A stretch of 37,745 nt of DNA from Fulvitalea axinellae (lineage in GTDB: Bacteria > Bacteroidota > Bacteroidia > Cytophagales > Cyclobacteriaceae): positions 1 to 37,745 of the forward strand of contig NZ_AP025327.1 of the NCBI RefSeq assembly GCF_036492835.1. The letters run 5' to 3'. A model generated the notes under the pieces. The model was not told the DNA's origin. It searched no databases and was given only the letters and a program-made list of their open reading frames with translations. Below, piece after piece: positions 1,325 to 36,549 of the stretch. A program made the position numbers and the translations under genes. The first letter of the stretch is position 1. Each line of letters opens with the position of its first letter.

Positions 1325-1359
1325 GTCCCTTTACCCGAAGTTTTGCCGGGATATTTTCG
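1325..1359 (+). promoter_or_regulatory. Candidate phage promoter module GTCC-N23-TATTTTCG
   Basis: TTTTGTCC (GTCC at 1325-1328) is followed after exactly 23 nt by TATTTTCG (1352-1359), and the start codon of the next gene follows after 3 nt. The same module recurs upstream of several other operons in this window. An 8-bp inverted repeat TACCCGAA / TTCGGGTA (1332-1339 and 1356-1363) overlaps its downstream box and the start codon. Confidence 0.6.
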
Positions 1360-1362
1360 GGT

Positions 1363-1569
1363 ATGGAAAACAACGAACGAATACAAATTAATAGAATTCC
1401 GAAATTTTCAGACATTATGCGGATTGGTAACGAGTACGGGATTGCCTTGGAAGGAAATTTTGAGACGCTCCAACTCTGCGGAATAATAATGGCGCTGGAA
1501 GACAAGATCGGAAAGCAGTCGGACCTGATCAAAGCGCTTAATACGGACTTGGGAGGGCTGACCGAATGA
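1363..1569 (+). CDS. Small hypothetical phage protein
   Basis: A 68-residue protein of unknown function. It has no membrane segment and no recognisable motif; the middle (residues about 18-60) looks amphipathic helical. It opens a transcription unit right after a terminator and a candidate promoter. Its stop overlaps the start of the P-loop kinase in an ATGA, so the two are probably translationally coupled. The start is fixed by being the first ATG after the terminator. Confidence 0.7.
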   Translation: MENNERIQINRIPKFSDIMRIGNEYGIALEGNFETLQLCGIIMALEDKIGKQSDLIKALNTDLGGLTE

Positions 1570-2081
1570 AAGTGGCGATAATAATAATCGGGGCGATGGG
1601 ATCGGGGAAAAGTTCCTTGGCCGAATCGCTCGCCTTGCGTACGGATCTGCCGGTGATCAGCCTCGACACTTGCCGGATCGATGCGTGGAAAGAGGATCCG
1701 CAAGCGATGCCGATGAGGCGGGAAAAGACAGCGGAATTGAAATGCCTTGACCTGATCAGGAATTCGGACCAACTTATTTTCGAGAGTTCGGGGGTGTCGA
1801 GGTTCCACACACGGGCTTTATCGGAGATCGCGCGAAAGGACGCGAGGGTAAAGGTTATCAAGCTCACGGCGCCGGACTGGGTACTGCGAAAACGGGTAGA
1901 GGCTCGGAGCCGGGAAAAGATACACGTTCCTTTTCCTTACAAAACGGGGACGGTCGGGGAGTCGATAAGCTATATGAAAGAGAAACTTAAGAACGTTAAT
2001 TCCGACTATAAGTTTAACACCGGAAAAATGACCGCCGAGGAGATAGCGGAACGCCTGTTGTCCTTCGCTGATTTTCCGTAG
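1566..2081 (+). CDS. P-loop kinase-like ATPase (AAA_33/polynucleotide-kinase type)
   Basis: A 171-residue nucleotide-binding protein, probably a small kinase. A Walker A motif GAMGSGKSS lies at residues 9-17 straight after a hydrophobic strand. There is an aspartate in VISLDTCRIDAW (a position often used in substrate binding or Walker B) and an arginine-rich lid-like stretch (LRKRVEARSREK) in the second half. Size and arrangement fit small phage kinases acting on nucleotides or nucleic-acid ends. The substrate cannot be named. It is coupled by ATGA to the preceding small gene and lies directly before the terminase genes, and the terS promoter module starts inside its 3' end. Confidence 0.75.
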   Translation: MKVAIIIIGAMGSGKSSLAESLALRTDLPVISLDTCRIDAWKEDPQAMPMRREKTAELKCLDLIRNSDQLIFESSGVSRFHTRALSEIARKDARVKVIKLTAPDWVLRKRVEARSREKIHVPFPYKTGTVGESISYMKEKLKNVNSDYKFNTGKMTAEEIAERLLSFADFP

Positions 2082-2094
2082 AGGCGCATATTCG
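2060..2094 (+). promoter_or_regulatory. Candidate late promoter GTCC-N23-CATATTCG before terS
   Basis: TTGTCC (GTCC 2060-2063), a 23-nt spacer containing ATTTTCCG, then CATATTCG (2087-2094). The terS start follows after 4 nt. The upstream box is inside the 3' end of the kinase gene. It would start transcription of the main head operon. Confidence 0.6.
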
Positions 2095-2098
2095 CAAT

Positions 2099-2752
2099 AT
2101 GAGAAAATCGATGCGCGACGAAGTAAAGGCTTTGGCCCGGCGGGTAAAGAAAGACGGATTGCTGGAGGACCGGATCCGTCTGCATTACCTTTCCGAAGAC
2201 TATCAATTGTCTAAATCCGACAATGATATTCTGCAACGGATCATAGCGATCCGGGAGCTACAGAAATCGGGGTACGAGACCCGAGAAATAGCCGTTATTC
2301 TGGCTAATGATTTCGGCGTTTCGCAATCGACCATATACCGGGATTGCAAGCGGGCACAATCGATTTTCGGCGACATGCTAAAAGCCTCGGCGGAGGCGGA
2401 AATATTGAGCACGGCGGAACTGATGAAGAGGATCGCGCGGAAGTCGTACGAGTGTGGCGACATGAAATCTGCGGTAAGAGCTTCGGCTAATTATGTCAAA
2501 ATACTACGGCCTTACGCCGAGGATAATCATATCGACGATGATGATCCGAAGACTTTTGTAATCGAAATAAAAACGGAAGGCCAGCGGAAAAAGAAAACGG
2601 TTGATATGTCGAATTTCCATAAGGTTGAGGACGCCGAGTTTGAGGAGATAGCGGACACGGTATTGGGGAAACATATCGGCCCTGACAGAATGCTCGACAT
2701 AATGGATTCCGAAGATTCGGATAAAGAGGAGGAGGATGAAGAAGAAGATTAA
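2099..2752 (+). CDS. terS: Terminase small subunit-like protein
   Basis: A 217-residue protein that probably recognises phage DNA for packaging. Residues about 58-82 form a helix-turn-helix (GYETREIAVILANDFGVSQS followed by TIYRDCKR). A helical middle part suits oligomerisation, and the C-terminus is very acidic (a run of E and D over the last 15 residues). The assignment rests on this HTH plus its position: the gene overlaps the large terminase by 17 nt, the usual terS-terL order. The start ATG lies 4 nt after a candidate promoter box. A general DNA-binding regulator is the alternative, but less likely. Confidence 0.78.
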   Translation: MRKSMRDEVKALARRVKKDGLLEDRIRLHYLSEDYQLSKSDNDILQRIIAIRELQKSGYETREIAVILANDFGVSQSTIYRDCKRAQSIFGDMLKASAEAEILSTAELMKRIARKSYECGDMKSAVRASANYVKILRPYAEDNHIDDDDPKTFVIEIKTEGQRKKKTVDMSNFHKVEDAEFEEIADTVLGKHIGPDRMLDIMDSEDSDKEEEDEEED

Positions 2753-4403: not shown

Positions 4404-4430
4404 TCTCCAACTCATTTCATTGCAATTGCA

Positions 4431-4461
4431 AGCCCGTCACGGCCTCGTGACGGGCTATTTT
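4431..4461 (+). terminator. Terminator after terL
   Basis: A perfect 11-bp stem AGCCCGTCACG / CGTGACGGGCT with a 4-nt loop is followed by ATTTTG. It lies 27 nt after the terL stop. Confidence 0.8.
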
Positions 4462-4652
4462 GTGCCATCATATTTCAACAAATTTGTCCGTGTGCAATTG
4501 CAATTTTGGGACAGGGCGGCAAGGACTTTCCTTTGATTCGTGCGAAAAACGGGGGTGATTTCGGGTGTTCAGATCGTTGTTAGTCAGGTTGTTATGTGTT
4601 TTTTCGTGCGAAAAAAGGCCGATTATTCATTTTTTGGACCTCGTTTTTTAAT

Positions 4653-4688
4653 GTCCTTCCCGGATTTTCCGCGTTTTCGCACCTTTCG
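4653..4688 (+). promoter_or_regulatory. Candidate promoter module GTCC-N24-ACCTTTCG
   Basis: AATGTCC (GTCC 4653-4656), then a 24-nt spacer with ATTTTCCG at the same offset as in the terS copy, then ACCTTTCG (4681-4688). It lies 25 nt before the next start codon. It would drive the portal operon. Confidence 0.5.
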
Positions 4689-4713
4689 GTCAGAAACAAG
4701 CAGAATTATTCGC

Positions 4714-5016
4714 ATGGCTATTAAGCTAAAAGAGGCGCTTAAACGGTGTGACGGCAAGGAGCAAATACAGTCGCTTACGTTCGTCACGTTCGACTCGAAG
4801 CGCAAGACCGGAGGCGTTATTAAGACGATAAAGGAAGTTGTCCAGACTGGGACTAGATACATGCCTTCCGACCCGAAAAAAAAGACGGGTACGGCGGGCA
4901 AAACGGACCACTGGGCCAGCCGGACACGGAACTTTTCACACGCGCAATCCACGGCGACCACCAAAGTCCATATCGATTTGATTCTGTATTTCAACGGCGA
5001 AAAAGTGATCTGGTAA
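4714..5016 (+). CDS. Small phage protein between terminase and portal
   Basis: A 100-residue basic protein of unknown function. I start it at the ATG at 4714 (MAIKLKEALKRCDG) because the upstream in-frame sequence overlaps palindromes and promoter-like DNA and has unprotein-like composition. Residues 16-40 (QSLTFVTFDSKRKTGG, IKTIKEV) look like beta strands. A lysine-rich linker follows around residue 52. The gene sits 1 nt before the portal gene in the same operon, which suggests a head-assembly or packaging accessory role; this is inference only. Confidence 0.72.
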   Translation: MAIKLKEALKRCDGKEQIQSLTFVTFDSKRKTGGVIKTIKEVVQTGTRYMPSDPKKKTGTAGKTDHWASRTRNFSHAQSTATTKVHIDLILYFNGEKVIW

Positions 5017-9143: not shown

Positions 9144-9617
9144 ATGGAATATAATATAAGCGGAATCGAAGCCGTGTTTTTGGCCTTGGCATCCGATCTG
9201 GCGGCTGAAATAAACGACCGGAAGCCGGTTGTTACGGAGTTGGTCGAGTTTCGGCAAGGGACCAAATTCCTTATGGCCGACGCCATTCCCGGAACGATAA
9301 AGTTTACGGAAAAACCGAAATCGTCAGGCAAGGGCGTTTTGTACCAGCCACGGCTGAGCTTTACGCTTAACCGAAACGACAGCGACAGCGAGGCGTTCCT
9401 CTCCAGATATTTTAAGAAAAATATTTTGGTCTTGCTGATAGACAATAACGGGCACGCTTGGATCGCAGGGGACCAGAACAACGGGCTGGAGCTTAGCTAT
9501 GTTTCCGACTTCGGGCAAGCGTCCGGAAAGCGGAACCAAGTCCGCGTAACGGTAAAGGCCGATACGCGAAACAAGACCAGAAGATACACTGGGCAGGATA
9601 TCCGCACACTTTTATAG
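9144..9617 (+). CDS. Hypothetical phage structural-region protein
   Basis: A 157-residue soluble protein. Sequence such as GTIKFTEKPKSSGKGVLYQP and the alternating strands LSFTLNRND, ILVLLIDNNGHAWIAGDQNN and VRVTVKAD suggest a beta-sandwich. The ending RYTGQDIRTLL is compact. The family is not recognised. It sits just before the prohead protease, and its stop TAG abuts the GTCC box of the next promoter module. Likely a minor virion or connector protein; no enzyme motif is seen. Confidence 0.65.
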   Translation: MEYNISGIEAVFLALASDLAAEINDRKPVVTELVEFRQGTKFLMADAIPGTIKFTEKPKSSGKGVLYQPRLSFTLNRNDSDSEAFLSRYFKKNILVLLIDNNGHAWIAGDQNNGLELSYVSDFGQASGKRNQVRVTVKADTRNKTRRYTGQDIRTLL

Positions 9618-9651
9618 TCCTTCCCGACCATTTTTTCAGCTCTTACATTGC
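9617..9651 (+). promoter_or_regulatory. Candidate promoter module GTCC-N23-TACATTGC before the protease gene
   Basis: ATAGTCC (GTCC 9617-9620), a 23-nt spacer with ATTTTTTCAG, then TACATTGC (9644-9651). It lies 35 nt before the GTG start of the capsid protease. Confidence 0.5.
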
Positions 9652-12223: not shown

Positions 12224-12547
12224 ATGTCTGAGACTAAAGAAAATACAAAAGAACTTACTCCCGAAGAGATGAAAGCGAAAATCATCCAGCTGGAGAAGGA
12301 GAAGGGCAACGCTTTGAAAACGGTCGAAAATCTCACGAAGGCGGCCGAAGAAAGCGTAAAAGATGAGGCGGGAAAGTACCCTGTCTTTACTTTCGCTAAG
12401 AAAAAATACGAGCTGGTAATCCCGAAAGCCAAGCATACTTTCAAGGGCAAGGCCATTATCGTAGACAAGGCTTCGCTGACAAGCGAAAAAGGTCTTTTGG
12501 GCGATCTTATTTCAATCGGATACGCAGGACTCAAGGAGGTTAAGTAA
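12224..12547 (+). CDS. Small head-region protein
   Basis: A 107-residue protein with a charged coiled-coil N-terminus (residues 5-50, rich in E and K), then a compact beta part (KYPVFTFAKKKYELVIPKAK). It lies between the capsid and the tail-tube-like gene and overlaps the latter by one nucleotide (TAATG). It may be a head decoration or head-tail joining accessory. No family is recognised. The start is the first ATG after a 61-nt spacer. Confidence 0.68.
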   Translation: MSETKENTKELTPEEMKAKIIQLEKEKGNALKTVENLTKAAEESVKDEAGKYPVFTFAKKKYELVIPKAKHTFKGKAIIVDKASLTSEKGLLGDLISIGYAGLKEVK

Positions 12548-13089
12548 TGGGATACGCGTATAAAGCAATTGACCGCAACCGGGGCGTTGAGAACGCTCCG
12601 GGCGGTGAGCAGGCCGTCTTTGTGGCGAGCGTCGATGATTTCGAGGAGATCAAGAAAACGAAGACGACAACGGAGCCGGGCGATTCCTGCACCATCGACG
12701 GGGACCACACTTTCAAAACCGGAAAGGGGTTCGCCAAAATCTATATGTCCGATGAAGTCATGCAGGCTCTAATGGAATCGATTTCCGAGGCGGGGTCTAA
12801 GCAGTACAACATCAAAGCGATGGGGTATCTTCCGGGCTTGAATCCCGTCAATTCGGAATTTGCCACAGCGATCCAAAACGACGACGTGATCCTCCTTGTT
12901 CCGTTACGCAATGGACATGTTCTCCAGTTGGGTTATATGGGCACTGTTGTCGCTTCGGGCGCCAAATGCGCGTCTTCCGGCGATTCCGGAATAGCTTCCG
13001 GGGGCAAAGCCGGACATTCGTTCGAATTCTCCAGCTATCAGCGTCCGCTGTATTATGAAGGAGCGATCACGGAAGTCCCGACAGCCTAA
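12547..13089 (+). CDS. Probable major tail tube or head-decoration protein
   Basis: A 180-residue beta-rich protein. Features are a central KGFAKIYMSDEVMQALMESI segment, VILLVPLRNGHVLQLGYMG strands, a glycine/serine-rich flexible stretch (ASGAKCASSGDSGIASGGK) and a closing AGHSFEFSSYQRPLYYEGAI strand. The last part is like the final strand of phage tail tube proteins, where a G-x-x-F-x-F precedes an aromatic-rich end. Position after the capsid gene and before tail assembly genes fits. The alternative is a capsid decoration protein. Confidence 0.6.
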   Translation: MGYAYKAIDRNRGVENAPGGEQAVFVASVDDFEEIKKTKTTTEPGDSCTIDGDHTFKTGKGFAKIYMSDEVMQALMESISEAGSKQYNIKAMGYLPGLNPVNSEFATAIQNDDVILLVPLRNGHVLQLGYMGTVVASGAKCASSGDSGIASGGKAGHSFEFSSYQRPLYYEGAITEVPTA

Positions 13090-13272: not shown

Positions 13273-13307
13273 AAAGACCGACGGGGTTTCCCGCCGGTCT
13301 TTTTTTG
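13273..13307 (+). terminator. Rho-independent terminator closing the head operon
   Basis: The stem AAAGACCG-A-CGGG / CCCG-C-CGGTCTTT (one A/C mismatch) with loop GTTT is followed by a T run. The GTCC box of the next promoter module begins at the end of the T run. Confidence 0.88.
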
Positions 13308-13341
13308 TCCTCCCCAAAGCGATTCCGGCCAGCTACATTCG
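13307..13341 (+). promoter_or_regulatory. Candidate promoter module GTCC-N23-TACATTCG
   Basis: TTTTGTCC (GTCC 13307-13310), a 23-nt spacer containing GATTCCGG, then TACATTCG (13334-13341). The start codon is 3 nt later. It opens the tail operon immediately after a terminator. Confidence 0.62.
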
Positions 13342-20202: not shown

Positions 20203-21167
20203 GTTCGGCGAAAGTAGAGGCGGTAAGCGTACGGGCCGAGCCGAAAACCTCGGAACGGTTCCGGAACACGCGGATCGGGGCGGTGTCCATACGGGGCACG
20301 TCCGTTCCGGATCTGGACGTGGTCCGGAACAAACCTTACTTTTTGGCGCTCGGCCTGCGCCAGCACCGACCCGAACCGGAAGTGAAGGTGGGCGCTCCGG
20401 TGTTCGGGGAGCCGGAGGATTGGGGCATGGCCGATTTCCTTAATGTCCCGGAGAACCCGAGAGCGATAGGCGACAACATCGGGGACGCCTCTTTGGAAGA
20501 AAACCCGAAAATAAGTTACGCCTTTACCGTTTCCCCCGTAAACGGAAAACTTCCGGAGGTTAACGGAAAAACGGTTTTGACACGGTACCCGGAGGGCGTC
20601 TACTTTACCGGAGATTATCTGGTATACCGAATAACCCTGCAACACAGGTACATCGACTTGAATACAGCGGAAATAGATGTCGATTACGACGGCGACGGAG
20701 GCGAATTGGGCTTCCAACTTTCCGATCTCAGGTATCTGGAAGAGTACGGGAAAATGTTCGGCGTTTTCGGTTACGAGTTCGAACACCCGCCGGCCGTCTT
20801 CCGGGAGATGTACGAGGACAGCTTTACCGACGAACAGCGAACCGTCCTGAACAACTTTATGAAGAACATTCCGGGGTTCGGCGACAGGACATATCCGGAG
20901 ATCTACGAGCTTATAAAGCCCGAAAAAAAGACTTACGATCCCCTCACCAATACGCAAAGCCTTATCCGCGACCTGTTCAGATCGAGGCTGGAACCGCTCC
21001 GAAAAATCGGCAAAGAACCCCTTTACCGGGAAGCTTTTTCCGACCCGGAACCGTTCCCCCCGATCACCAAGTTCTCAAGCCTGAATTTCTACATCGGGGA
21101 TTCCCGGTCAGGCCTGATAAGGCGTTTGCGGATGGGACCGCATTATCTTTTCCGGGAGCCGTTTTAG
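20199..21167 (+). CDS. Hypothetical virion protein of the fibre block
   Basis: A 322-residue protein starting with GTG. The start is supported by a strong Shine-Dalgarno sequence AAGGAGGT at 20184-20191, unusual in this genome where most starts lack one, and by a GTGA overlap with the previous stop. The first 130 residues are basic and proline-rich. A middle IDVDYDGDGGELGF looks like a calcium-binding loop. The rest is helical with many aromatic and acidic residues. No family is recognised. It is probably a baseplate or fibre-associated protein. Confidence 0.6.
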   Translation: MSSAKVEAVSVRAEPKTSERFRNTRIGAVSIRGTSVPDLDVVRNKPYFLALGLRQHRPEPEVKVGAPVFGEPEDWGMADFLNVPENPRAIGDNIGDASLEENPKISYAFTVSPVNGKLPEVNGKTVLTRYPEGVYFTGDYLVYRITLQHRYIDLNTAEIDVDYDGDGGELGFQLSDLRYLEEYGKMFGVFGYEFEHPPAVFREMYEDSFTDEQRTVLNNFMKNIPGFGDRTYPEIYELIKPEKKTYDPLTNTQSLIRDLFRSRLEPLRKIGKEPLYREAFSDPEPFPPITKFSSLNFYIGDSRSGLIRRLRMGPHYLFREPF

Positions 21168-21225
21168 AACAGCCGTCCTTTCCCCGCCCCTTCCCCGTTT
21201 TTTAATTGCCCCCTCAATATTCGAT

Positions 21226-22563
21226 ATGATAAACCGATTCTCCATAACTCTGCAAAACCCGGCCTTCGCACGAAACAGCCTTCCCGGCTTGCTCACTATG
21301 CCAGTGAAGCTGGCCAACGACGCCGAAGCTAAACGCCTTTTCGAGCACCCGCAGATCAGCGCCAATACGGGGGCGGTTTCCGAGGTACCTTGGTCGCTTG
21401 AGGTCGGGGGGCTGGTTTGGCGGGTGGGTAAGCTGAAGCTTCTTTCGGGTAACGAAAAAGAGCTTAGCGTCCAGTTTGTCAGCGAGGCGGGGGCGGTGAA
21501 AAAATTACTGGAGGGGACTTCGCTCCGGGATTTGGATTTGGGCGAACCGGCTTTTTCGGACGCTTGCGTTTCGGGCGATCTGGTATATGTGGCGCCGGAG
21601 TACGGCAATCCGAAAGCTTACGGCGACGACAAGGAGAATAATCCGGATTACGCGGGCACGGTGAACAAGTACGAAAACGGGGCTTACCTCCGCACCTCGG
21701 CGACATGCCAGACGCCTTGGGTTCGGCTTCAGCCTGTGCTGGAGCAGATCGCCGGGCTGATCGGGTACAGGTTGACGGGGAGCTTCGTCGATGATCCGCT
21801 ATTCCCGAAACTGGCGATCTACTCGAACGTAAGTTTGGACGGCGAAGCTGATTTCGAACCGGCGAAGCTGTTACCGGACGTGAAGCTTTCGAAATTCCTT
21901 ATCGAGCTGAAGAAGCTCTTCGGGATCCATTACCATTTCGACACTACCGCCGGGACTCTGGAGCTTATGGGCTGGAAAGAGATCTTGCGGGCGGATTTCG
22001 AGGACTGGAGCGACAAGGTTGTCAAGCGGAGCAAGTTCGGGGCGTACGATTACGCCGGGGTCCGATTTCACCAAGTGTTCGACAGTTCCGATGATATGTA
22101 CGGGCGGGCCGTCTCGGACTTCCGCACGCTGGAGGTGGACGGCGGGGCCGAGCCGTACGATACCCGATTCAGCACACTGGCCGAGGTGGACGGACGGATA
22201 ACCGTGTCGCAGGAAGTTTACAGCGTCCCCAAGGAGCAGGAAAACCGTACGGACAGTTTGCGCTTGGCGGTGTACGGGGGCTTGGCAAACGGCAAGCCCA
22301 CGGCGAGCACGGAGGCGCTTCGCTGGAGAGGAACGGCCGGACTGGCGAATACCCGCTTCGCCGAATGGCTGGAGTTTCGGAGACAGAGCCGTACGGAGGT
22401 TTTCGAGATGTCGCTTACGGTAGCGGACCTCTTTAACTGGAGGCCGGATAAGCGGGTGATGATCAACCATAATATTTATGTTCTGGAAAAGATCCGGAGC
22501 AAGATAGAGCCGGGGCTAACCAAATTCCCGGCCACGGTAACGGCCAGAAAGGCGAACGTATAG
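21226..22563 (+). CDS. Probable tail hub/baseplate protein
   Basis: A 445-residue beta-rich protein. The N-terminus (ITLQNPAFARNSLPGLLTMP) is followed by strands, then WVRLQPVLEQIAGLIGYRLT and LSKFLIELKKLFGIHYHFDT. This is like the helix-plus-strand units of tail hub proteins that build a peptide-like fold around a cavity. The C-terminus has INHNIYVLEKIRSKIEPGLT, an ending often seen in hub proteins. It is one of two genes leading to the tape measure gene. The start ATG comes 2 nt after AATATTCG, similar to the promoter boxes elsewhere, but without a clean GTCC box. The stop lies inside the loop of a terminator. Confidence 0.6.
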   Translation: MINRFSITLQNPAFARNSLPGLLTMPVKLANDAEAKRLFEHPQISANTGAVSEVPWSLEVGGLVWRVGKLKLLSGNEKELSVQFVSEAGAVKKLLEGTSLRDLDLGEPAFSDACVSGDLVYVAPEYGNPKAYGDDKENNPDYAGTVNKYENGAYLRTSATCQTPWVRLQPVLEQIAGLIGYRLTGSFVDDPLFPKLAIYSNVSLDGEADFEPAKLLPDVKLSKFLIELKKLFGIHYHFDTTAGTLELMGWKEILRADFEDWSDKVVKRSKFGAYDYAGVRFHQVFDSSDDMYGRAVSDFRTLEVDGGAEPYDTRFSTLAEVDGRITVSQEVYSVPKEQENRTDSLRLAVYGGLANGKPTASTEALRWRGTAGLANTRFAEWLEFRRQSRTEVFEMSLTVADLFNWRPDKRVMINHNIYVLEKIRSKIEPGLTKFPATVTARKANV

Positions 22564-22579: not shown

Positions 22580-22614
22580 GTCCTTCGACATTTTTTCCGG
22601 CTTGTCGAGATTCG
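22580..22614 (+). promoter_or_regulatory. Candidate promoter module GTCC-N23-GAGATTCG
   Basis: TTTTGTCC (GTCC 22580-22583), a 23-nt spacer with ATTTTTTCCG, then GAGATTCG (22607-22614). The start codon follows after 4 nt. Same terminator-then-module arrangement as at 13307. Confidence 0.6.
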
Positions 22615-26509: not shown

Positions 26510-26513
26510 TTAC

Positions 26514-26544
26514 TTGTTAGTTAATAAACTAACTGCTATATTTG
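26514..26544 (+). promoter_or_regulatory. Host-type promoter TTG-N20-TATATTTG
   Basis: TTG (26514-26516), a spacer of 20, and TATATTTG (26537-26544), an exact match to the Bacteroidota vegetative -7 consensus TANNTTTG at normal distance. Operator site 2 fills the spacer. It drives the gene at 26576 and the XRE gene. Confidence 0.8.
26516..26533. promoter_or_regulatory. Operator site 2 (GTTAG-N8-CTAAC) inside the promoter spacer
   Basis: GTTAG-TTAATAAA-CTAAC lies between the -33 and -7 boxes, so binding would block RNA polymerase. Confidence 0.72.
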
Positions 26545-26575
26545 AGACATAATCAATCACCTAACCGACTTCGAT

Positions 26576-27006: not shown

Positions 27007-27231
27007 ATGACTATGATAGAAAAAATAAGAAAGGTGATCGGGGACAGGAGAACCGAGAAAGACATGACGTATCAGGAGCTGGCGGATGCCGTTGGTGAAA
27101 AAAAAACGGACGCTTGGAACCTCATAAACGGCAAACGGAACCCTACTTTTTCGACTCTGGAAAAGTATCTTGTCGAACTGGATCTCGATATGCAGATTAC
27201 AGCGAAAAAGCCAAAAGGCAAGAAGGCGTAA
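27007..27231 (+). CDS. XRE/Cro-type HTH repressor
   Basis: A 74-residue DNA-binding protein made almost wholly of one helix-turn-helix domain: TYQELADAVGEKKTDAWNLI (about residues 22-41), then NGKRNPTFSTLEKYLVEL, the XRE family pattern, with a lysine-rich tail. It is flanked on both sides by pairs of GTTAG-N8-CTAAC sites, which makes it the obvious candidate to bind them. It would repress its own promoter and the promoter at 27278, giving a lysogeny-type or copy-number switch. An ATG 6 nt further in (MIEKIRK) is an equally good start. Confidence 0.88.
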   Translation: MTMIEKIRKVIGDRRTEKDMTYQELADAVGEKKTDAWNLINGKRNPTFSTLEKYLVELDLDMQITAKKPKGKKA

Positions 27232-27266: not shown

Positions 27267-27277
27267 ACTCTGAATGC

Positions 27278-27308
27278 TTGTTAGTTTAAAGGCTAACCAA
27301 TATATTAG
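27278..27308 (+). promoter_or_regulatory. Host-type promoter TTG-N20-TATATTAG
   Basis: TTG (27278-27280), a spacer of 20, TATATTAG (27301-27308), one base off the -7 consensus. Operator site 4 fills the spacer exactly as in the promoter at 26514. It drives the 27374 gene and probably parAB. Confidence 0.7.
27280..27297. promoter_or_regulatory. Operator site 4 (GTTAG-N8-CTAAC)
   Basis: GTTAG-TTTAAAGG-CTAAC, starting 37 nt after site 3, within the promoter spacer. Confidence 0.7.
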
Positions 27309-27373
27309 AGTCATAATAATTCAACGGCGAGCCAGATGCCACTAACAAGACCCCAAGGCAGGGGCATAACAAA

Positions 27374-27683: not shown

Positions 27684-28448
27684 ATGACAAAGATTATTTC
27701 GATTATCAACCACAAAGGCGGAGTAGGCAAAACAACGATCACCGCAAACCTCGGATCGGCTTTGGCGCGTAAAGGGTATTCCGTGCTGCTTGTCGATTTT
27801 GATCCGCAAGCGAATCTTTCCTCTCATTTCGGGATTGAAGAGGAAGAGTCCACTATCGCAGACGCTACGATAACGGGAGAAACCATCTGGGCCGTCGAGG
27901 CTGAAAAAGGTTTAAGACTGTTGCCCGGCTCGCTTCGTCTTTCGGACGCCGAGAGTCATTTTGCGGGGAAAATATCGCAGTATACCCGGTTGAAAAAAGT
28001 GCTGAAATCGCACGCCAAAGATTACGATTTCGTTTTGGTTGACTGCCCGCCTTCGCTCGGGTTCTTTACGCTTAACGCCCTTACCGCCTCAACCCACATC
28101 ATCACGCCTTGCGAGGCCTCCAAAATGGCTTCGGACGGGTTGGGATCGATAATCCAATTGGTCGATGACGTAAAGGAAGACATGAACGAAAGGCTTGAAA
28201 ATCTCGGCGTGGTGATTTCGAACCGGGAAAACCGGGTAGTGGAAAAAGATTTCGAAGCTATGATAAGGGACGAATACGACACTTTCGAATCGGTGATCAC
28301 CCGACGGAAGCATGTTAAAGAGGCCAGCGCCCGGCAAGTCTCCGTATTCGAATATGCGCCCGAGTGCGTAAGCGTTAACGAATTCAGCGATTTGGCTTCC
28401 GAGCTTGCGGGAAAACTGGAAATGAAAAAAACGGAAAGCCATGTCTAA
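27684..28448 (+). CDS. parA: ParA-type partition ATPase
   Basis: A 254-residue Walker-type ATPase that moves the plasmid form to daughter cells. The deviant Walker A is KGGVGKTT at residues 11-18, with the signature lysine K11; A' is LVDFDPQANLSSHFG (37-50) and Walker B LVDCPPS (118-124). There is no N-terminal HTH, so it is the short ParA/Soj type. It overlaps the partner gene by 8 nt, an operon typical of partition loci. Two GC hairpins precede the start. Confidence 0.93.
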   Translation: MTKIISIINHKGGVGKTTITANLGSALARKGYSVLLVDFDPQANLSSHFGIEEEESTIADATITGETIWAVEAEKGLRLLPGSLRLSDAESHFAGKISQYTRLKKVLKSHAKDYDFVLVDCPPSLGFFTLNALTASTHIITPCEASKMASDGLGSIIQLVDDVKEDMNERLENLGVVISNRENRVVEKDFEAMIRDEYDTFESVITRRKHVKEASARQVSVFEYAPECVSVNEFSDLASELAGKLEMKKTESHV

Positions 28449-29475
28449 GAAAACCAGCTTTGCCAAACCCCGGAGCGAGAAATCGAAATCCGGGGTAAAG
28501 ACCGCCACGCGGAGTATCGTTAACAGGGCAAACTTACGCTTGGAAACGATCAAGGAGCTTCCCGAACTCCGGGACTTTATCCGGAAGCATTCGGAAGAGG
28601 AATTTGATCAGCTTTTAGCCAATATCTACAGTGAAGGAGTGCGGGATCCGATCGTATACTTTGAGCTGGACGGCGAGCCTGTGCTGCTCGACGGGCACCA
28701 CCGAAAACGGGCCGTGCTCCAGATCCGGAAAGAGCTGGGCGATAATCCGGACTACAAGCTGGAGAAAATAGAGCTGGAGGGATTGGAAGAGGCCAAGGAC
28801 TGGATGATCAATAACCAGTTGGGACGCCGAAACCTGACAAAATCGGAGATCAGCTTTTTGCGGGGACTTCAGTATAACCGGGAAAAATCAAAGCGGGAGG
28901 ACAACCTTAAGCAGGGGGATTCCCCGAAGTATCAAAATGATACTTCGGGAGAATCGGGCGACACAGCCAAAAGACTGGCTAAACAACACGGGGTAGGAGT
29001 TGCCACGATAAAAAGGGATTCTCAATTTGCTGAAGGGCTGGAAAAGATCGGGGAAAAGAATCCGGAACTAAAAACCGAAATTCTTTCGGGAAAATCCAAT
29101 GTGAAAAAAGGTGAGGTTCAGGCTTTCGCCAAAGCCAAGGAAATCCCGACCGAGATCACTCCCGAAACCGTAAAGGCGGTAGCCAAGCCCAAACCAATGG
29201 AGGCTCAGGACCACCAAGCCGACAAGGAGGTGATCGACAATAACGGAAAGACTTCGGAGCCTGTAATCCCCGGACAAACCAATATTGACGGTGAGGTGGA
29301 AATAAGCGAAGAGTTCGACCGAATCAAGGCAGTAGCCAGAAAGATGAGGAAGAAGCTGGAGAGGATCGAAAACTACCCCGTTGTTGTTCTTGATGACCTT
29401 TACGACCTAAATAACGATCTCAAGGAGATGAAAGAAATCATCCTCCCTACTCCTACTCAAAATACACAGCCATAG
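28441..29475 (+). CDS. parB: ParB-type centromere-binding protein
   Basis: A 344-residue partner of ParA. Residues about 34-130 form the ParB/sulfiredoxin-type N-domain: LRLETIKELPEL, GVRDPIVYF, and the nucleotide-binding box LLDGHHRKRA at 82-91. A helix-turn-helix follows at about 174-192 (TAKRLAKQHGVGVATIKRD). The rest is a linker and a helical C-terminus (IKAVARKMRKKLERIENYP) for dimerisation. The 27-bp palindrome that may be parS lies in codons 161-170. A terminator follows. Confidence 0.88.
   Translation: MSKKTSFAKPRSEKSKSGVKTATRSIVNRANLRLETIKELPELRDFIRKHSEEEFDQLLANIYSEGVRDPIVYFELDGEPVLLDGHHRKRAVLQIRKELGDNPDYKLEKIELEGLEEAKDWMINNQLGRRNLTKSEISFLRGLQYNREKSKREDNLKQGDSPKYQNDTSGESGDTAKRLAKQHGVGVATIKRDSQFAEGLEKIGEKNPELKTEILSGKSNVKKGEVQAFAKAKEIPTEITPETVKAVAKPKPMEAQDHQADKEVIDNNGKTSEPVIPGQTNIDGEVEISEEFDRIKAVARKMRKKLERIENYPVVVLDDLYDLNNDLKEMKEIILPTPTQNTQP
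28923..28949. repeat. 27-bp palindromic repeat, copy 1 (candidate parS)
   Basis: Arms CCCGAAGTATC and GATACTTCGGG around AAAAT. It is identical over 27 bp to the copy at 36998-37024. It is inside parB. Confidence 0.75.
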
Positions 29476-29547: not shown

Positions 29548-29582
29548 GTCCTTTCTCATTACACGGTTCCGTGTAATATTCC
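29548..29582 (+). promoter_or_regulatory. Candidate promoter module GTCC-N23-AATATTCC with internal operator
   Basis: CCGTCC (GTCC 29548-29551), 23 nt, AATATTCC (29575-29582); the ATG follows after 3 nt. A perfect 9-bp inverted repeat ATTACACGG / CCGTGTAAT (29558-29577) lies within the spacer. Confidence 0.5.
29558..29577. repeat. Inverted repeat (operator-like) before the adenine methyltransferase
   Basis: ATTACACGG-TT-CCGTGTAAT, ending 8 nt before the start codon. It is likely a repressor or autoregulatory site. Confidence 0.6.
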
Positions 29583-30461: not shown

Positions 30462-31628
30462 TCACCAAACCATTTCGTCAGACTTTGGAGCTTCCTGCTC
30501 CGCTTTACCCGCCAGATAATCCACTACGAAATTGTCCATATTGGTCCATCGCTTTTCCTGTTCCGATCCACGCAGAAGGATCACGAAACGGGCGAAATAT
30601 TTCCAGTCTCCCAGGTCCGCTTTTTGTCCTCGAAGACGTTCGAAGACTTTTTTGTCTTCCGAACTGGCGTGTTCGCTCTGCACATGCGCTTGGAAAGCGA
30701 TCTTGTCTTCCCGTGTCACTTTCCGTAACCATTCTCTCCGGCTCTTCTCGTAATACTTTCCGAAAGCCTCTCTCGCCTCTTCTAAACGCCCCTCTTCGCT
30801 TATCTCCGTTTTTGGTAAGTCAATGTCCCAAGATGGTAATTCGGCCGTTTCTACAGGTGTTTCTGGTTGTTTTACGGGCTTTGGCTCGGGTTTTGGAGTA
30901 GGTTTGGGTTGGGTTATCGATTTCGGGGCGGATTTTATGTGGAATATCAGTAAACTAATTTTTCTGCCTGTTTTTTTTTCTTCGACCTGAACTCTTATAT
31001 CCGACAGTGAATTAATGTCTTTTAGCGCTGGAGCAATTACCCTTCTGCGAAACTGCGCAAAACTTCGTTGTTTCGACTCTGGAACGACTACATGTTTTCG
31101 AAGTAACTCAACACTAATCTTTCGCTCTCCTATTCTTTCATACTGCTTACAAAGTTCATAGATCACGAGTGAAAAAGCTGAACTAAAATGAAAGACCCAT
31201 TTCAATGCGTATGAAGTAAAGTTTGCACGCTGTTTTAGTAACAACTCTTTAACAGCTGGATGAAAATGTATAGCAACCTCTCCGCTTCCTTCCTCCCGAT
31301 TCACTCTATCGATGAAACTAATCGAATCGAAAGCACTATTCGGATCACTTGGATCTCTTATGTAGTCAATCGATGTCTTCGTCAATTGCATGACGCTTTC
31401 CCTAGTCTTTATATACTCTTTCCCTCCAATATGCGCGCCCTCATCGAGTCCCAATACATTTCGAACAGAGACATAATACGGCTTAAAATCATCATCATCG
31501 ATTTGAATCTGGCTTATAGCTAAAGCCACAGCCCTTTGCTGTATCAGAGAGAAGGGTTCTTTCCGATTTATCAGCTTGTTTGACTTTGTTACTCGGTACT
31601 CTCCGAGTTCGGAAATTAGATATTTCAT
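30462..31628 (-). CDS. rep: Plasmid replication initiator, Rep_3 (RepB-like) family
   Basis: A 388-residue iteron-binding initiator. The start is set at 31628 (MKYLISELGEYRVTKSNKLI); the longer in-frame reading to 31721 only translates iteron DNA. Family features are NKLINRKEPFSLIQQRAVAL at the N-terminus, two winged-helix parts (SVMQLTKTSIDYI; SFAQFRRRVIAPALKDINSL) and the YALKWVFHFSSAFSLVIYEL helix. From about residue 255 a proline/lysine/glutamate linker (TPKPEPKPVKQPETPVE) leads to a C-terminal domain rich in aromatic and charged residues. The first part is AT-rich, the C-terminal part matches the GC-richer phage genes. Confidence 0.88.
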   Translation of the reverse strand: MKYLISELGEYRVTKSNKLINRKEPFSLIQQRAVALAISQIQIDDDDFKPYYVSVRNVLGLDEGAHIGGKEYIKTRESVMQLTKTSIDYIRDPSDPNSAFDSISFIDRVNREEGSGEVAIHFHPAVKELLLKQRANFTSYALKWVFHFSSAFSLVIYELCKQYERIGERKISVELLRKHVVVPESKQRSFAQFRRRVIAPALKDINSLSDIRVQVEEKKTGRKISLLIFHIKSAPKSITQPKPTPKPEPKPVKQPETPVETAELPSWDIDLPKTEISEEGRLEEAREAFGKYYEKSRREWLRKVTREDKIAFQAHVQSEHASSEDKKVFERLRGQKADLGDWKYFARFVILLRGSEQEKRWTNMDNFVVDYLAGKAEQEAPKSDEMVW

Positions 31629-31643
31629 TTCAAAAGAGATGTT

Positions 31644-31681
31644 AAAGTGCCGAATACCCCGCAATGATGCCAAATTCCCCG
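31644..31681 (-). repeat. Two inverted iteron copies at the rep start
   Basis: The reverse complement of the iteron is read at 31644-31661 and 31665-31681, between the rep start and the direct array. In Rep_3 plasmids such inverted copies bind Rep dimers and shut down rep transcription. Confidence 0.78.
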
Positions 31682-31699
31682 CAAACTCCAAGCTATTTA

Positions 31700-31878
31700 C
31701 GGGGAATTTGGCACTTTTCAAAACTATTTACGGGGAATTTGGCACCTTTAACGGCATAAAGGTTAGTGTGTTTTAATAACTCATTAATGTTTATCGGGGA
31801 ATTTGGCACCTTTAACGGGGTTATTTGGCACCTTTAACGGGGAATTTGGCACTTTTAACGTGGGAATTTGGCACTTTA
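31700..31878 (+). repeat. Six direct iterons of the replication origin
   Basis: The unit is CGGGGAATTTGGCACYTTT. Copies start at 31700, 31731, 31795, 31816 (one extra base), 31838 and 31859 (CGTGGG variant). Spacing between the last four is about 21-22 nt, two helix turns, so Rep would bind on one face. Confidence 0.9.
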
Positions 31879-32192
31879 TTTCAATGTAAATATCTATGAA
31901 TTAGCAGGTTACACCCATCTAAAACATTAAAACAAAAATAAAACAAATAAAACAACAATACGCGCATGCGCGCGATGCCTGTTTTTTCTTTTTTCTTTTT
32001 TTCAAAACCATCAACCCAGACAGCTAAATAACGAGAGGGAAAATTGACATATATCATGTCAGTAAACAGTGTTACGGAAGAATGCTCTTAAACTGAAAAT
32101 TCTTTAAAAAGTCTTTTAATTATCTGTAAATGTGCTTTTTACGTTAAATATAGAGTCTTTTTATCTTGCAAAAGTCGAGTGAAATCACTTTA

Positions 32193-32966: not shown

Positions 32967-35432
32967 ATGAGGCTATTTCGGAGGGATATAACACTGACAA
33001 ATGTTATCAGCATGCGTGAATATTTGGAAGAAAGGATGTCGGTTCTCGGACTGACTGACGAGGATATTACGCTGGTGTGCGAACGGGAGAGTGGCGGGGT
33101 GAATAGCGAACTGACGCCCGCCAAGCTCATTTTTTTCGATTCGGACGAGGAAGGCAATATCCTTATAAATTACTTTCGCCCGAACTTTTACCCGTACCGG
33201 TACCGCCCGGAGGGGAACAAGTGGGAGAAGGAATTCCAGCGGATCCGGCTAAAGAACCCGGACGGCAAGGGCAAATACCGCCAGCCGAGGAAAACGGGCG
33301 TGTTCCCGTTCTTCCCGAAAAATCTGCTGAAGAAATGGCGGGACGGGGAGACTATCGAAACCCTGTATTTCACCGAAGGCGAACTGAAAGCCTTCAAGGC
33401 GGATTTCGAAGGCTTAGACGTAGTAGGCTTCCCGAGTATCCAAGGTCCGTACAAAGTGGACGTGAGGCGTGAGCTTCACGAGGACTTGCAACGCCTTATA
33501 GTCGAATGCGGGGTAAAGAGCGTGGTGTTCCTCACCGACGCCGACACGATCAGCCTTAAGTATGAGGCGGACAAGGATCTGAGCAAACGCCCGGCGAGTT
33601 TCTTCGCCGCTATCCGAAACTTTTTCGAGAGTCTGGATACCCTGTTGCGGGACAAGCGTGTTGAGCTTGAAGAGGCTTTTTGGGCGCATATAAAAACCAA
33701 ATATTGCGAGCCTCGGGCGGTGGAGCGTGACGGCGAAGAGCTGATCCTCGACGGGAAAGGCCTCGACGACCTTTTGGTGCTGGAGGGAAAGGACAAGAGC
33801 CGGGTGATCGACCAGCTTCGGGAGCTGAAACTTAACGGCGATTATGTCGAGGGCATGAAGCTTAACGATTCGGCGCTTAAGCGGATCAGGCTGAAACTCG
33901 GGTCGGGAAATAAAGTCGAGCAGTTTTATGACGTATACGCTTCCTTTCTGGACGATAAGGTTTTCCGGTGGAAGAACCGTCGCTATCAGTTCAACGGCGA
34001 AGAGGTTACTTACCTTCGCCACGATGACGCGGATCTGTTCCTTCGTGTCGGATCAGACTGGTACAAACGGATAACAAAACTGAATAGACGGAATGAGTCC
34101 GAGGAAGAGCTGATCCCTTTCAAAATCGGGGAGATACAACGTGATTACGGAAAGAAATTTCCCGATTTCATCGATAGTATAAAGCGATATGACAGCTTCA
34201 CTATTGAGCCGGATACTGGTGATAATTACCGCCGTGTAATACATGGAGCTATCAATCTGTTCGAACCCCTTACCCACACGCCAGAGCCGGGAAGCATCAA
34301 ACTTACGCTTAAGTACCTGAAGCACGTTTTCCAAGGCAATGGATTTGTTACTGAAAAATTCGAGGACGGGCGCCATTCATGGGAAGAGCATTGCGAGCAG
34401 GGCGATCCCTTTACGGTGGCGATGGATTACCTCACGATCATGTACCGTTATCCGAAGCAAAAGCTTTGCGTTCCTATCTTGGTGTCGCCGGAAAACATTA
34501 CGGGGAAATCCACTTTTCTAAAATGGCAACAAGCCATTTGGGGAAGCGCAAACGGGACGATACTGGATAACGAACGCTTCAAAATGAAGTTCAATTCCCA
34601 TTACGCTAGCAAGTTTTTCATCGGGCTGGATGAAGGTTTTCTTGATCTGGAAAAACGATCAGAGAAAGAGCGTCTGAAGCAACTGGCTACGGCTGATGAT
34701 ATTTTCTTGGAAGACAAAGGGGTAAACGTAAAGAAGATCCCTTACCACGGGCATCTTGTTATCTGTTCCAACGATGCGGATAAGGTAATGCAGATGGATG
34801 AACAAGACACCAGATGGTTTGTCGTTCGGGTTCCGAAAATACCCAAAGGAGAGGAAGACAAGGACTTGGAAAGCAAAATAATCGATGAGATTCCCCATTG
34901 GCTTAACTATGTAAAGAATCGTGAGATCTTTCATCCGAGAGAGTCCAGGCTTTGGTTTAAACCGGAATGGTTCTTCACTCAGCAGATGCAGGAGATAATC
35001 GACAATACGAAGTCCAGAGCTGACGCCCTTATTTACAACTTTGTCCGGAATATATTTTTCGACTACTGCGTGGATTCTTTTACCGCCACGGTAAAAGCCG
35101 TTCAGCATGAAGTGAACAAGGACGCAAAGTACCGGCTGGACGAATCGGATATCCGCTACTACCTGAAGAACAAAAAGCAATTAGCTCCAAACTCACGGAC
35201 TGGCCGTTGGAAGTATCCAATCGGATATGACGATAAGTATCGGACTTTACTCTATCAAAAAGGCATTGGGCGGTTCTTCAAATTCAATATCGCCGATTGG
35301 CTAAATGAGGAAGAGATGAGGTCTGTTGCCGAATCGAAAGCTGAAATATTTGCGCCTGATCCGGATTTAATAACTACAAATAATGAAACTGTAGCCTCCG
35401 ATACATCGGAGACAGGGGATGTTCCGTTTTGA
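32967..35432 (+). CDS. Primase-helicase (TOPRIM-like plus SF3 helicase)
   Basis: An 821-residue replication enzyme. The N-terminal third has a TOPRIM-like core: the glutamate in TEGELKAFK (nt about 33370) and the aspartates in FLTDADTIS (nt about 33535). The C-terminal half is a superfamily 3 / D5-type helicase: Walker A SPENITGKSTF (nt about 34490), Walker B FFIGLDEGF (nt about 34615) and a sensor asparagine in HLVICSNDAD. The middle links the two. I use the ATG at 32967 (MRLFRRDITLTNV); a GTG at 32949 would add six residues. It probably unwinds and primes DNA in lytic replication. Confidence 0.85.
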   Translation: MRLFRRDITLTNVISMREYLEERMSVLGLTDEDITLVCERESGGVNSELTPAKLIFFDSDEEGNILINYFRPNFYPYRYRPEGNKWEKEFQRIRLKNPDGKGKYRQPRKTGVFPFFPKNLLKKWRDGETIETLYFTEGELKAFKADFEGLDVVGFPSIQGPYKVDVRRELHEDLQRLIVECGVKSVVFLTDADTISLKYEADKDLSKRPASFFAAIRNFFESLDTLLRDKRVELEEAFWAHIKTKYCEPRAVERDGEELILDGKGLDDLLVLEGKDKSRVIDQLRELKLNGDYVEGMKLNDSALKRIRLKLGSGNKVEQFYDVYASFLDDKVFRWKNRRYQFNGEEVTYLRHDDADLFLRVGSDWYKRITKLNRRNESEEELIPFKIGEIQRDYGKKFPDFIDSIKRYDSFTIEPDTGDNYRRVIHGAINLFEPLTHTPEPGSIKLTLKYLKHVFQGNGFVTEKFEDGRHSWEEHCEQGDPFTVAMDYLTIMYRYPKQKLCVPILVSPENITGKSTFLKWQQAIWGSANGTILDNERFKMKFNSHYASKFFIGLDEGFLDLEKRSEKERLKQLATADDIFLEDKGVNVKKIPYHGHLVICSNDADKVMQMDEQDTRWFVVRVPKIPKGEEDKDLESKIIDEIPHWLNYVKNREIFHPRESRLWFKPEWFFTQQMQEIIDNTKSRADALIYNFVRNIFFDYCVDSFTATVKAVQHEVNKDAKYRLDESDIRYYLKNKKQLAPNSRTGRWKYPIGYDDKYRTLLYQKGIGRFFKFNIADWLNEEEMRSVAESKAEIFAPDPDLITTNNETVASDTSETGDVPF

Positions 35433-35460
35433 CGCTCTGTTTTGTAATCCAAAAAAACAC

Positions 35461-35643
35461 GTTACAAATGTTACAATTGTTACATTTTAAAATAAGGTAT
35501 TGTGTTACAGTTGTTTAGGGTTGTGTTGAAGCGTAACAAAACATGTAACATTTTCCGCCCTTCATTCGGAGAATGTTACATGTTGCCCCGGTCATGATTT
35601 GACTCTGAAAAATGTTACAGAAAATGTTACACATTTTGTTACA
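35461..35643. repeat. GTTACA repeat cluster
   Basis: GTTACA starts at 35461, 35470, 35479 (9-nt steps), 35504, 35575, then 35614, 35626, 35638 (12-nt steps). TGTAAC on the other strand is at 35544. A related CGTAACA is at 35532. Confidence 0.8.
35541..35583. repeat. Strong hairpin in the GTTACA cluster
   Basis: ACATGTAACATT / AATGTTACATGT 12-bp arms, extended inward by TCCG/CGGA with one T/G pair, loop of 9. There is no T run, so it is not a plain terminator. Confidence 0.75.
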
Positions 35644-35775
35644 CCCTATTTAAGGTGTAAACACTTGAAATATAGTCGGTTGAAATCAATCGAAACAATT
35701 GTAACAAAAGTGCATAGTTTTTCAAAATCACGGCAGAAAGTTCAAAGTTCACGGAGGCTCATTTTCCGGGCGTCC

Positions 35776-35810
35776 GTCCTTCGCCCGTGTAGGCGGGTTT
35801 CGTAATGTTT
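35776..35810 (+). promoter_or_regulatory. Weak copy of the GTCC module
   Basis: GTCC (35776-35779), 23 nt, TAATGTTT (35803-35810). Only TANN of the downstream box fits. 24 nt before the start codon. Confidence 0.25.
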
Positions 35811-35834
35811 TTTGTGTGCTAAAAGTACAATTCA

Positions 35835-36086
35835 ATGGAACCGATAAAACTCAAAAAGAAAGTTTTGATCGAGAAGCTACCGAACGGACAATTTCGCTGT
35901 AACCTGAAATTGACGCAGGGCGCTAAGAGTGTTGCGCTCACGGCGGAAGAGGTGTGTGTTTGCTCCATACTGGACCGGATAAGGGTAACAACCGGGATAA
36001 AGGTTGTTCGCTTTACGCTTCGGGACTCTGGTAAGGACTCTTCCGAAATCGCCAACTGGCTACGGAACCTGCCTAAATGGGGATGA
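35835..36086 (+). CDS. Small hypothetical early protein
   Basis: An 83-residue protein (MEPIKLKKKVLIEKLPNGQF, then VRFTLRDSGKDSSEIANWLR). The N-terminus is basic, with strands and a final helix. No known motif is seen. It is located right after the GTTACA cluster and before ssb. It could be a DNA-binding accessory of replication. Confidence 0.65.
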   Translation: MEPIKLKKKVLIEKLPNGQFRCNLKLTQGAKSVALTAEEVCVCSILDRIRVTTGIKVVRFTLRDSGKDSSEIANWLRNLPKWG

Positions 36087-36120
36087 ATAATTAGACCAAC
36101 AAAACATAATATTTACCGAT

Positions 36121-36489
36121 ATGCTCAATCAAGTTCAGATAGTTGGTCGGCTCTGGAAAGACCCGGAAGTCGAAATGGTAGGCCAAAGCCACCGGAAAGT
36201 CAGGTTGCCTTTGGTCTGGAACGAGAAAGTTATTTCAGCTCGGGACGGTGAGAGCGGGGAACACAAAGCGTTTGTGTATCCCGAGTTTTGGAACCGTACG
36301 GCGGACTTTATCGAGCGCCACGCCGAAAAGGGCACGATGGTTTTTGTCGAAGCGGAGCTTCGGACGGAGAGCTGGGAGAAGGACGGGGAGAGGAAGAATT
36401 TTTTAAGGATGGTCGGGAAAAAGTTCCGGGTGTTGTCGGGCTGGAGAGAGAAGGCGGAGGATGATGATTCGGATGATCTGCCGTTTTAG
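36121..36489 (+). CDS. ssb: Single-stranded DNA-binding protein
   Basis: A 122-residue SSB protecting ssDNA in replication. It begins MLNQVQIVGRLWKDPEVEMV, the standard SSB OB-fold opening, continues with FVYPEFWNRTADFIERHAEK and MVFVEAELRTESWEKDG, and ends with the acidic tip DDDSDDLPF that recruits partner proteins. It is slightly shorter than bacterial SSB. The opening box TATTTACCGAT just before the ATG resembles the other start-proximal boxes. A long hairpin follows. Confidence 0.92.
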   Translation: MLNQVQIVGRLWKDPEVEMVGQSHRKVRLPLVWNEKVISARDGESGEHKAFVYPEFWNRTADFIERHAEKGTMVFVEAELRTESWEKDGERKNFLRMVGKKFRVLSGWREKAEDDDSDDLPF

Positions 36490-36494
36490 AGAGT

Positions 36495-36527
36495 TTTCCC
36501 GTGGGGACAAAATGTCCCCACGGGAAA
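36495..36527. repeat. 15-bp perfect hairpin after ssb
   Basis: TTTCCCGTGGGGACA / TGTCCCCACGGGAAA with loop AAA, 5 nt after the ssb stop. There is no T run on either strand, so regulatory or structural use is likelier than simple termination. Confidence 0.7.
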
Positions 36528-36549
36528 TTAGGTAACGAAAATATATACG
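36514..36549 (+). promoter_or_regulatory. Possible GTCC-N24-TATATACG module
   Basis: GTCC (36514-36517) is in the right arm of the hairpin above; 24 nt, TATATACG (36542-36549), the ATG after 1 nt. The fit is weaker than at other sites. Confidence 0.35.

Follow-up and report, generated by a model that had tools for sequence, protein, structure and literature searches.

How tailed phages of Bacteroidota switch on their late genes is the question raised by a 37,745-base stretch of DNA (hereafter the window), contig C14 (NZ_AP025327.1) in the 15-contig, 7.39 Mb genome of Fulvitalea axinellae, in which a promoter-like module, a GTCC word followed at a fixed distance by a short box, recurs ahead of phage operons. 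A preliminary description of the window had proposed a phage-specific late promoter, and the present analysis supports this proposal well, the module being located before late operons, in one orientation and with one rigid gap, in many related phages. Judged from its sequence, the module very probably functions as a promoter, and a phage-coded factor is likely to be needed for its use, where the preliminary description had inferred an activator or a changed polymerase. A scan of part of the window's proteins turned up neither a sigma-like nor a polymerase gene. We favour with moderate confidence the complete reading, in which (i) a large group of tailed Bacteroidota phages uses the module as its late promoter, (ii) the module is read by the host polymerase together with a phage-coded factor, and (iii) an uncharacterised protein family, hereafter family 11, is the leading candidate for this factor. 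Searches of open-access full texts brought up no description of late-gene switching in these phages or of the motif.

The case relies mostly on the relatives. The best full-length relatives of the window terminase within the order are 43-45% identical to it, and the prophages concerned carry the same module ahead of the same kinds of genes, with the consensus GTCCTTY-N20-NANNTTYG and exactly 23 nt from GTCC to the box. Assuming that the box sits at the place of the Flavobacterium -7 element, it spans -12 to -5 and the word spans -39 to -33. The GTCC recognised in the preliminary description is present, the conserved word being actually GTCCTTY; of the two gaps it had allowed, 23 nt holds and 24 nt does not, since the site at 4653 fits at 23, and the spacer motif that it regarded as shared, ATTTTTCCG, lies outside the conserved module. 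The strict pattern occurs 39 times on the plus strand and never on the minus strand of the window and 13 relatives, five of the relatives being without a match. In the nine discovery carriers, GTCCTT followed by NANNTTYG at gap 23 was counted 36 times on the plus and never on the minus strand, each other gap from 14 to 35 giving 0-1 matches and control words at gap 23 at most two on the plus strand; six further carriers, selected with a form of this pattern, gave 33 and 0. These carrier counts are not independent, because the pattern had already served to detect several of the carriers. In addition, 44 viral contigs fetched by the family-11 protein alone, with queries made from carriers and with some contigs repeating genome loci already counted, gave 70 plus and 0 minus matches of GTCCTT with NANNTTYG at this gap, and 34 of the 44 hold at least one module made of a GTC[CT]T[TA] word and the NANNTTYG box. 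Strict modules in 11 of the 20 loci of one set numbered 21 on the plus and one on the minus strand.

The broadest count comprises 101 phage and prophage loci (2.71 Mb, window included), in which repeats of the same 50-nt context were counted once and the GTC[CT]T[TA] words were pooled; overlapping or partial loci (G059C22, G100C32, G063C1 and G021C1, all 20-kb loci, and L102-L114) are left out, and L200-L214 were obtained only after this count. At gap 23, 190 occurrences share the strand of the terminase or family-11 gene and 6 fall on the opposite strand; on the former, any other gap from 10 to 39 is represented 0-7 times. As to range, the form preceded by a run of T residues (T-run) was found in 68 of 390 genomes of the order, many of them with clusters, and in 20 of 395 genomes across the phylum, with single matches in 18, two far-apart matches in each of G445 and G570, and no cluster. 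The phylum survey sets no limit to the range, because it used one word only and other words, as well as phages of other hosts, were found later; a restriction of the module to one order, considered at one stage, is overturned by modules in phages of other hosts.

Within the window, the module copies (Table) were scored by a matrix trained on 176 modules of other phages, window excluded, with the gap fixed at 23. The sites at 2060, 22580, 1325, 4653 and 13307 give the five top scores on both strands, and four plus-strand and no minus-strand positions reach 14 or more, the expectation being 0.07 per strand. On the minus strand the highest score, reached twice, is 11.2, close to those of 13307 and 29548; these two are retained for their position, each lying behind a terminator-like hairpin with its end 3 nt from an ATG. 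Of the nine sites named in the preliminary description, six hold up (1325, 2060, 4653, 13307, 22580 and 29548), two are weak (9617, and 35776 with 6.3) and one fails (36514, with -24.3). The site at 36514, inside a perfect hairpin, was rejected, as was 35776, which is not above noise, since 3.4 positions per strand would reach 6 or more by chance. The TTGC box of the weak site at 9617 recurs in Polaribacter phage Leef_1. A further candidate before gene 21226 was discarded for having no GTCC at gap 23, the GTCCTT at 21175 scoring 0.4; the stretch 21166-21226 displays a box, AATATTCG, directly before ATG 21226, with which the GTCCTT, 51 nt ahead of the start codon, is not in register.

Taken alone, the window is no more than suggestive. 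The box is degenerate in most of the sites first described, and the exact form GTCC-N22..26-TANNTTCG has only three matches, one of them on the minus strand, for a shuffle mean of 0.49. When GTCC is kept exact, the gap is 23 or 24 and at least five of six box letters agree, six plus-strand matches are found versus 0.94 expected, with five on the minus strand; five of the six plus-strand matches stand 37-39 nt before a start codon, one of these five being the rejected 36514.

Table. Features of the window, in window coordinates; scores are those of the module matrix.
Feature	Position	Strand	Remarks
Putative late promoter module GTCCCTT-N20-TATTTTCG	1325..1359	+	score 16.5; box end 3 nt before ATG 1363; after terminator hairpin 1295-1319
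Putative late promoter module GTCCTTC-N20-CATATTCG	2060..2094	+	score 18.4, the window's top; box end 4 nt before ATG 2099; precedes terminase small and large subunits; no preceding T-run
Module GTCCTTC-N20-CACCTTTC	4653..4687	+	score 15.6; precedes portal unit by 26 nt (ATG 4714)
Candidate late regulator, family 11, 152 amino acids	8511..8969	+	
Weak module GTCCTTC-N20-TACATTGC	9617..9651	+	score 5.0, alone not above noise; before S49 protease unit (GTG 9687)
Module GTCCTCC-N20-TACATTCG	13307..13341	+	score 11.8; after terminator-like hairpin; box end 3 nt before ATG 13345
Module GTCCTTC-N20-GAGATTCG	22580..22614	+	score 17.8; after hairpin and T-run (by eye); box end 4 nt before ATG 22619; heads tape measure unit
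Ordinary Bacteroidota promoter TTG-N20-TATATTTG	26514..26544	+	repressor region; GTTAGTT/AACTAAC dyad; contrasting promoter class
Ordinary Bacteroidota-type promoter TTG-N20-TATATTAG	27278..27308	+	second copy of GTTAGTT/AACTAAC operator-like repeat
ParA and ParB-like gene (ParB-like by eye)	27684-29475		adjoining tailed-phage structural genes
Module GTCCTTT-N20-AATATTCC	29548..29582	+	score 11.1; after terminator-like hairpin (by eye); box end 3 nt before ATG 29586; precedes Dam-type methylase gene
Rep3-type initiator	30462-31880	-	block of GGGGAATTTGGCAC iteron-like repeats upstream

The upstream word varies among phages at the same gap. GTCTTT (7 plus, 0 minus) and GTCCTA (10 and 0) were found at gap 23 in ten loci, GTCAC (4 and 0) in Flavobacterium phage laban6-1, and a box variant, NANNATTG, at the same gap (10 and 0) in 10 low-GC contigs, three of which were later dropped as near-duplicates. 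Genome G024 and others, provisionally taken as non-carriers, carry such variant words. Seven genomes contain both a GTCCTT prophage and a GTCCTA prophage, the latter with two modules in G191, G327, G365 and G376 and a single module in G059, G100 and G040. These genomes tie the word to the phage and not to the host, since two words are present in different prophages of one host genome. On a family-11 tree of 90 rows (11 of them unlabelled; 11 near-duplicate viral contigs dropped), the word changes 6 times over the 79 labelled rows versus 12-17 times in 300 shuffles, with mixed loci labelled by majority and viral contigs except L144 set to GTCCTT by default. Among second prophage loci, 11 of 20 comprise at least one module on the gene's strand. 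Three observations count against this picture: (i) the other nine second loci have no module on the gene's strand (G221:C260, G221:C12, G352:C26, G376:2.656, G059:0.848, G294:2.33, G385:C1, G385:C3 and G168:C12), (ii) the GTCCTA prophage G376:2.546 also has one GTCCTT match, and (iii) one sister pair on the tree (G223 and G376:2.546) differs in word.

The module is accompanied by family 11, which was found in all 17 carriers compared (two of them cut by contig ends) and in 70 of 390 genomes of the order. Same-strand clusters, defined as at least two modules within 60 kb, occur in at least 24 genomes and in G123; all 25 have family 11, in 24 of them on the same contig, G221 being fragmented. 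Genome G068 has two module matches on different contigs and no family 11, and five terminase-related loci of 15-35 kb each in which family 11 was not detected hold 0, 1, 0, 0 and 0 modules. When variant words and boxes are allowed, 79 of 81 family-11 loci have a module on the gene's strand, with seven opposite-strand matches in six loci. In 34 of 57 loci family 11 lies at most 170 nt from a module, the Spirosoma, Rudanella, Runella, Siphonobacter and Dyadobacter type showing the module 98-170 nt behind the end of the gene; in 14 of the 57 this distance is 525-649 nt, and in nine there is no module within 1.5 kb. Two AlphaFold models of the family (mean predicted local distance difference test scores, pLDDT, of 87.7 and 86.8) agree in topology and predict a long helix and two C-terminal helices. 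The best viral match is an uncharacterised protein of Leef_1 (E 5.5e-7), and no structural annotation for the family was found in the annotated records examined. Two other candidate regulators were dropped: cluster 7, not found in G060, and cluster 27, which lies directly before the first module in some phages and is present in five elements only.

Cultured and annotated phages share with the window both family 11 and gap-23 modules. In Leef_1 (Polaribacter phage, Helgolandviridae), family 11 corresponds to Leef1_39, and six GTCCTT words stand 39-69 nt before annotated coding sequences, three of them with an accepted box; Ingeline_1 (Cellulophaga phage, Duneviridae) comprises five plus-strand and no minus-strand modules, located 39, 39, 41, 69 and 103 nt before coding sequences, and laban6-1 (Duneviridae) has four modules 49-68 nt before coding sequences, with its own word GTCAC. 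Plus- and minus-strand counts are 2 and 0 in Microcystis phage Mea-Yong924-1, 4 and 0 in gut phage MT835542, 4 and 1 in locus G003, and 4 and 1 in a Porphyromonas prophage; a family-11 match is present in these four as well as in Ingeline_1 and laban6-1. The records of Leef_1 and Ingeline_1 list the protein as hypothetical, that of laban6-1 does not describe it as a regulator, and a term search of the main texts of PMC8776804 and PMC7077304 did not find the word "promoter". In Leef_1 (L159), Ingeline_1 (L201) and laban6-1 (L202) a gene close to that of the primase is annotated as a LuxR-type regulator; no LuxR match turned up among the scanned window proteins.

We propose that host RNA polymerase with the primary sigma factor would open the box, and that a phage-coded protein bound to the GTC word and docked on the polymerase would replace the usual -33 contact (TTTG), the late operons staying silent until this protein is made. 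Two features of an activator-dependent late promoter are recognisable: (i) a one-strand motif shared by several late operons and (ii) a motif that tracks the phage rather than the host, in seven genomes. Family 11, universal among carriers and often adjacent, would be the linked regulator gene. The chances that family 11 is the factor are, in our estimate, a little above even. More tentatively still, the family might represent a novel type of promoter-specificity factor whose fold is unrecognised and which would bind GTC at -39 and take over the -33 contact of sigma; its word specificity (GTCCTT, GTCTTT, GTCCTA, GTCAC) would have diverged with the phage, co-resident prophages would run separate late programmes, and the arrangement would extend to phages of three Bacteroidota orders, as which we take those of the hosts Spirosoma, Polaribacter and Porphyromonas.

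It is somewhat unlikely that the trans-acting factor is instead another phage protein, such as the terminase small subunit or a paired uncharacterised family, or a host alternative sigma factor, family 11 being structural or unrelated. Several observations lean this way and tell against family 11. Seven families are universal among the 17 carriers, including terminase large subunit, terminase small subunit, portal, protease, the gene after the protease (probably the capsid gene, by its position), the paired uncharacterised family (window 9144-9617 and 12547-13089) and family 11; co-occurrence alone does not single out family 11, because the six others are equally universal, and the terminase small subunit has weak helix-turn-helix matches. 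Family 11 itself has no significant match in Pfam, PHROG or NCBIfam (best Pfam E of any member 0.013, below the cut-off), no recognised DNA-binding domain and, for either model, no PDB fold match at E <= 0.001. The module stands 54-58 nt before the family-11 start in nine high-GC viral contigs, so that another promoter would be needed for the first synthesis of the protein there. Finally, G159 and G063 have family 11 and no gap-23 module at the words tested, G159 having GTCCTT at gap 24, and G021 has the family and none of the known words. Against these points stand the proximity of family 11 to the module and its lack of structural annotation described above, and a host sigma factor would leave the two words in one host unexplained.

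Use of the module by the unmodified host primary sigma factor, with the TTY of GTCCTTY as a degenerate -33 TTTG and no phage factor, is unlikely. In Bacteroidota promoters, 19-21 nt separate the -33 TTTG from the -7 box. The preliminary description had judged the distance in the module too long for a host promoter, an argument that is only half correct: counted from the TTY it is 19-20 nt, the canonical -33/-7 register, and what remains unusual is the GTC core, the fixed gap, the lost T-12 and the G permitted at -10. This register, the A-11, TT and G-5 shared by the box with TAHHTTTG as given in PMC6847099, and the occurrence of two canonical promoters on the window plus strand all speak for host sigma. 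Yet GTC at -39 to -37 is fixed and lies outside the host consensus, TTTG is absent, and a single gap is used. The box departs from TAHHTTTG at its free positions: among 180 distinct modules, found with a pattern that itself sets A-11, T-8, T-7 and G-5, T-12 is present in 23%, G-10 in 35% and C-12 in half, compared to a near-invariant T-12 and virtually no G-10 in the F. johnsoniae -7 box (PMC6847099). Further upstream in the same modules, a T-run occupies -47 to -42 and position -40 is C or T. Nor does the module show the presence at host genes expected of a primary-sigma promoter: eight whole genomes have 31 pattern matches outside prophages versus 100 for a reversed control, and 177 upstream regions of the window's host contain no GTCC at gap 23; a narrower pattern gave six matches outside the window in its own genome versus one for the control, a number small and not nil. 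The coexistence of two words in one host genome likewise argues against this explanation.

The position of the module relative to the genes resembles that of a promoter. The ATG follows the box by exactly 4 nt in 50 of 180 modules, and in a second group of 55 the first ATG lies at 19-24 nt. According to PMC6847099, most F. johnsoniae start sites lie 4-5 nt past the -7 element, and 87% of the predicted leaders are longer than 10 nt; many module-driven late mRNAs are therefore predicted to be leaderless, and probably are.

A phage-encoded sigma factor, either family 11 or another small phage protein, replacing host sigma is distinctly unlikely. The invariant gap, the phage-dependent words and the loss of T-12 would fit a different sigma factor, as might the long helix and two C-terminal helices predicted for family 11. 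On the other hand, family 11 has no sigma match in Pfam, PHROGs or NCBIfam, and neither model finds a PDB fold at the threshold given, so that no sigma region 2 or 4 is recognised. The box is still host-like, and this suggests the use of host sigma region 2.

Very improbable is a signal acting at the RNA level or at the terminator (an antitermination or processing site) in place of a promoter. In its favour, the module often follows a terminator, which accounts for the phase lock of the T-run to GTCC; against it, several copies have no T-run (2060 and several first modules), the box resembles the -7 element of the phylum, the ATG lies where the start site is expected, and spacer dyads do not exceed shuffles. 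A spacer hairpin was accordingly rejected as a general feature, the longest spacer stem being at the shuffled level in 180 modules (29548 and several modules in G040 are dyad-like); a wider stretch shows a slight excess of stems of at least 6 (17 versus about 7.6 expected), and of the several hundred column pairs tested none exceeds z 3.9. As an observation in its own right, the phase-locked form TTTTTT-N-Y-GTCC (180 modules; 1325, 13307 and 22580 in the window) joins terminator and promoter in one compact insulated unit. Chance or composition, to which the degenerate window boxes and similar minus-strand matches might point, is excluded by the relatives, given the counts by strand and gap and the control words.

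The window probably represents a complete circle, because its end continues into its start by sequence read-through, with the junction falling within one DNA-methylase reading frame (by eye). It encodes a Rep3-type initiator, ParA and, judged by eye, a ParB-like protein, together with a terminase, a portal, a tape measure and a head protease of the S49 type, and the replication and partition genes beside phage structural genes make it a probable phage-plasmid of a Bacteroidota host. No close relative of the window was found by megablast against phage records or by a terminase search of viral contigs. The operator-like repeat copies at 26513-26559 and 27277-27323, over promoters of the TTG-N20-TATATTTG type, flank an XRE-type gene (27007-27231), a probable lysogeny switch. 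A 30-nt palindromic stretch around CCCGAAGTATCAAAATGATACTTCGGG is present in two copies, 97% identical, one inside the ParB-like gene (28920-28949) and the other across the end of gene 36551-37015 (36995-37024), and is possibly a candidate site for ParB or another protein. Dense TGTTACA/TGTAACA inverted repeats at 35430-35720, before gene 35835 and close to the primase-helicase, are a possible replication origin or operator.

The module allows late operons to be annotated and flags an uncharacterised protein family, and, as a rigid motif marks the late operons of the cultured phages Leef_1, Ingeline_1 and laban6-1, the question is directly testable. If the clade words are read by matching factors, these phages would provide separate promoter/factor pairs working with Bacteroidota polymerase, and would document how, in nature, a DNA word changes jointly with the factor that reads it.

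Compared to the Bacteroidota primary-sigma promoter, with the consensus TTTG / TANNTTTG given in PMC6847099, the module shares A-11, TT and G-5 of the box, the TTY at 19-20 nt, and an ATG or predicted start about 4-5 nt past the box. It differs in the GTC core at -39 to -37, the rigid gap, a dispensable T-12 and a tolerated G-10, and in showing no excess outside prophages in eight genomes. Mu C, P2 Ogr and T4 MotA with AsiA are phage activators of late or middle promoters read by the host polymerase. The present system resembles them in that dispersed late operons share a word that stands where the -35 contact would normally be, with the gene of a small phage protein nearby; it differs in belonging to another phylum with another sigma factor, with no sequence or fold relation found, and in a word that changes between clades and keeps its gap. 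T4 late promoters, for their part, are read with the phage sigma-like gp55 through a -10 element alone; both are phage-specific late classes, and the module additionally includes an upstream word.

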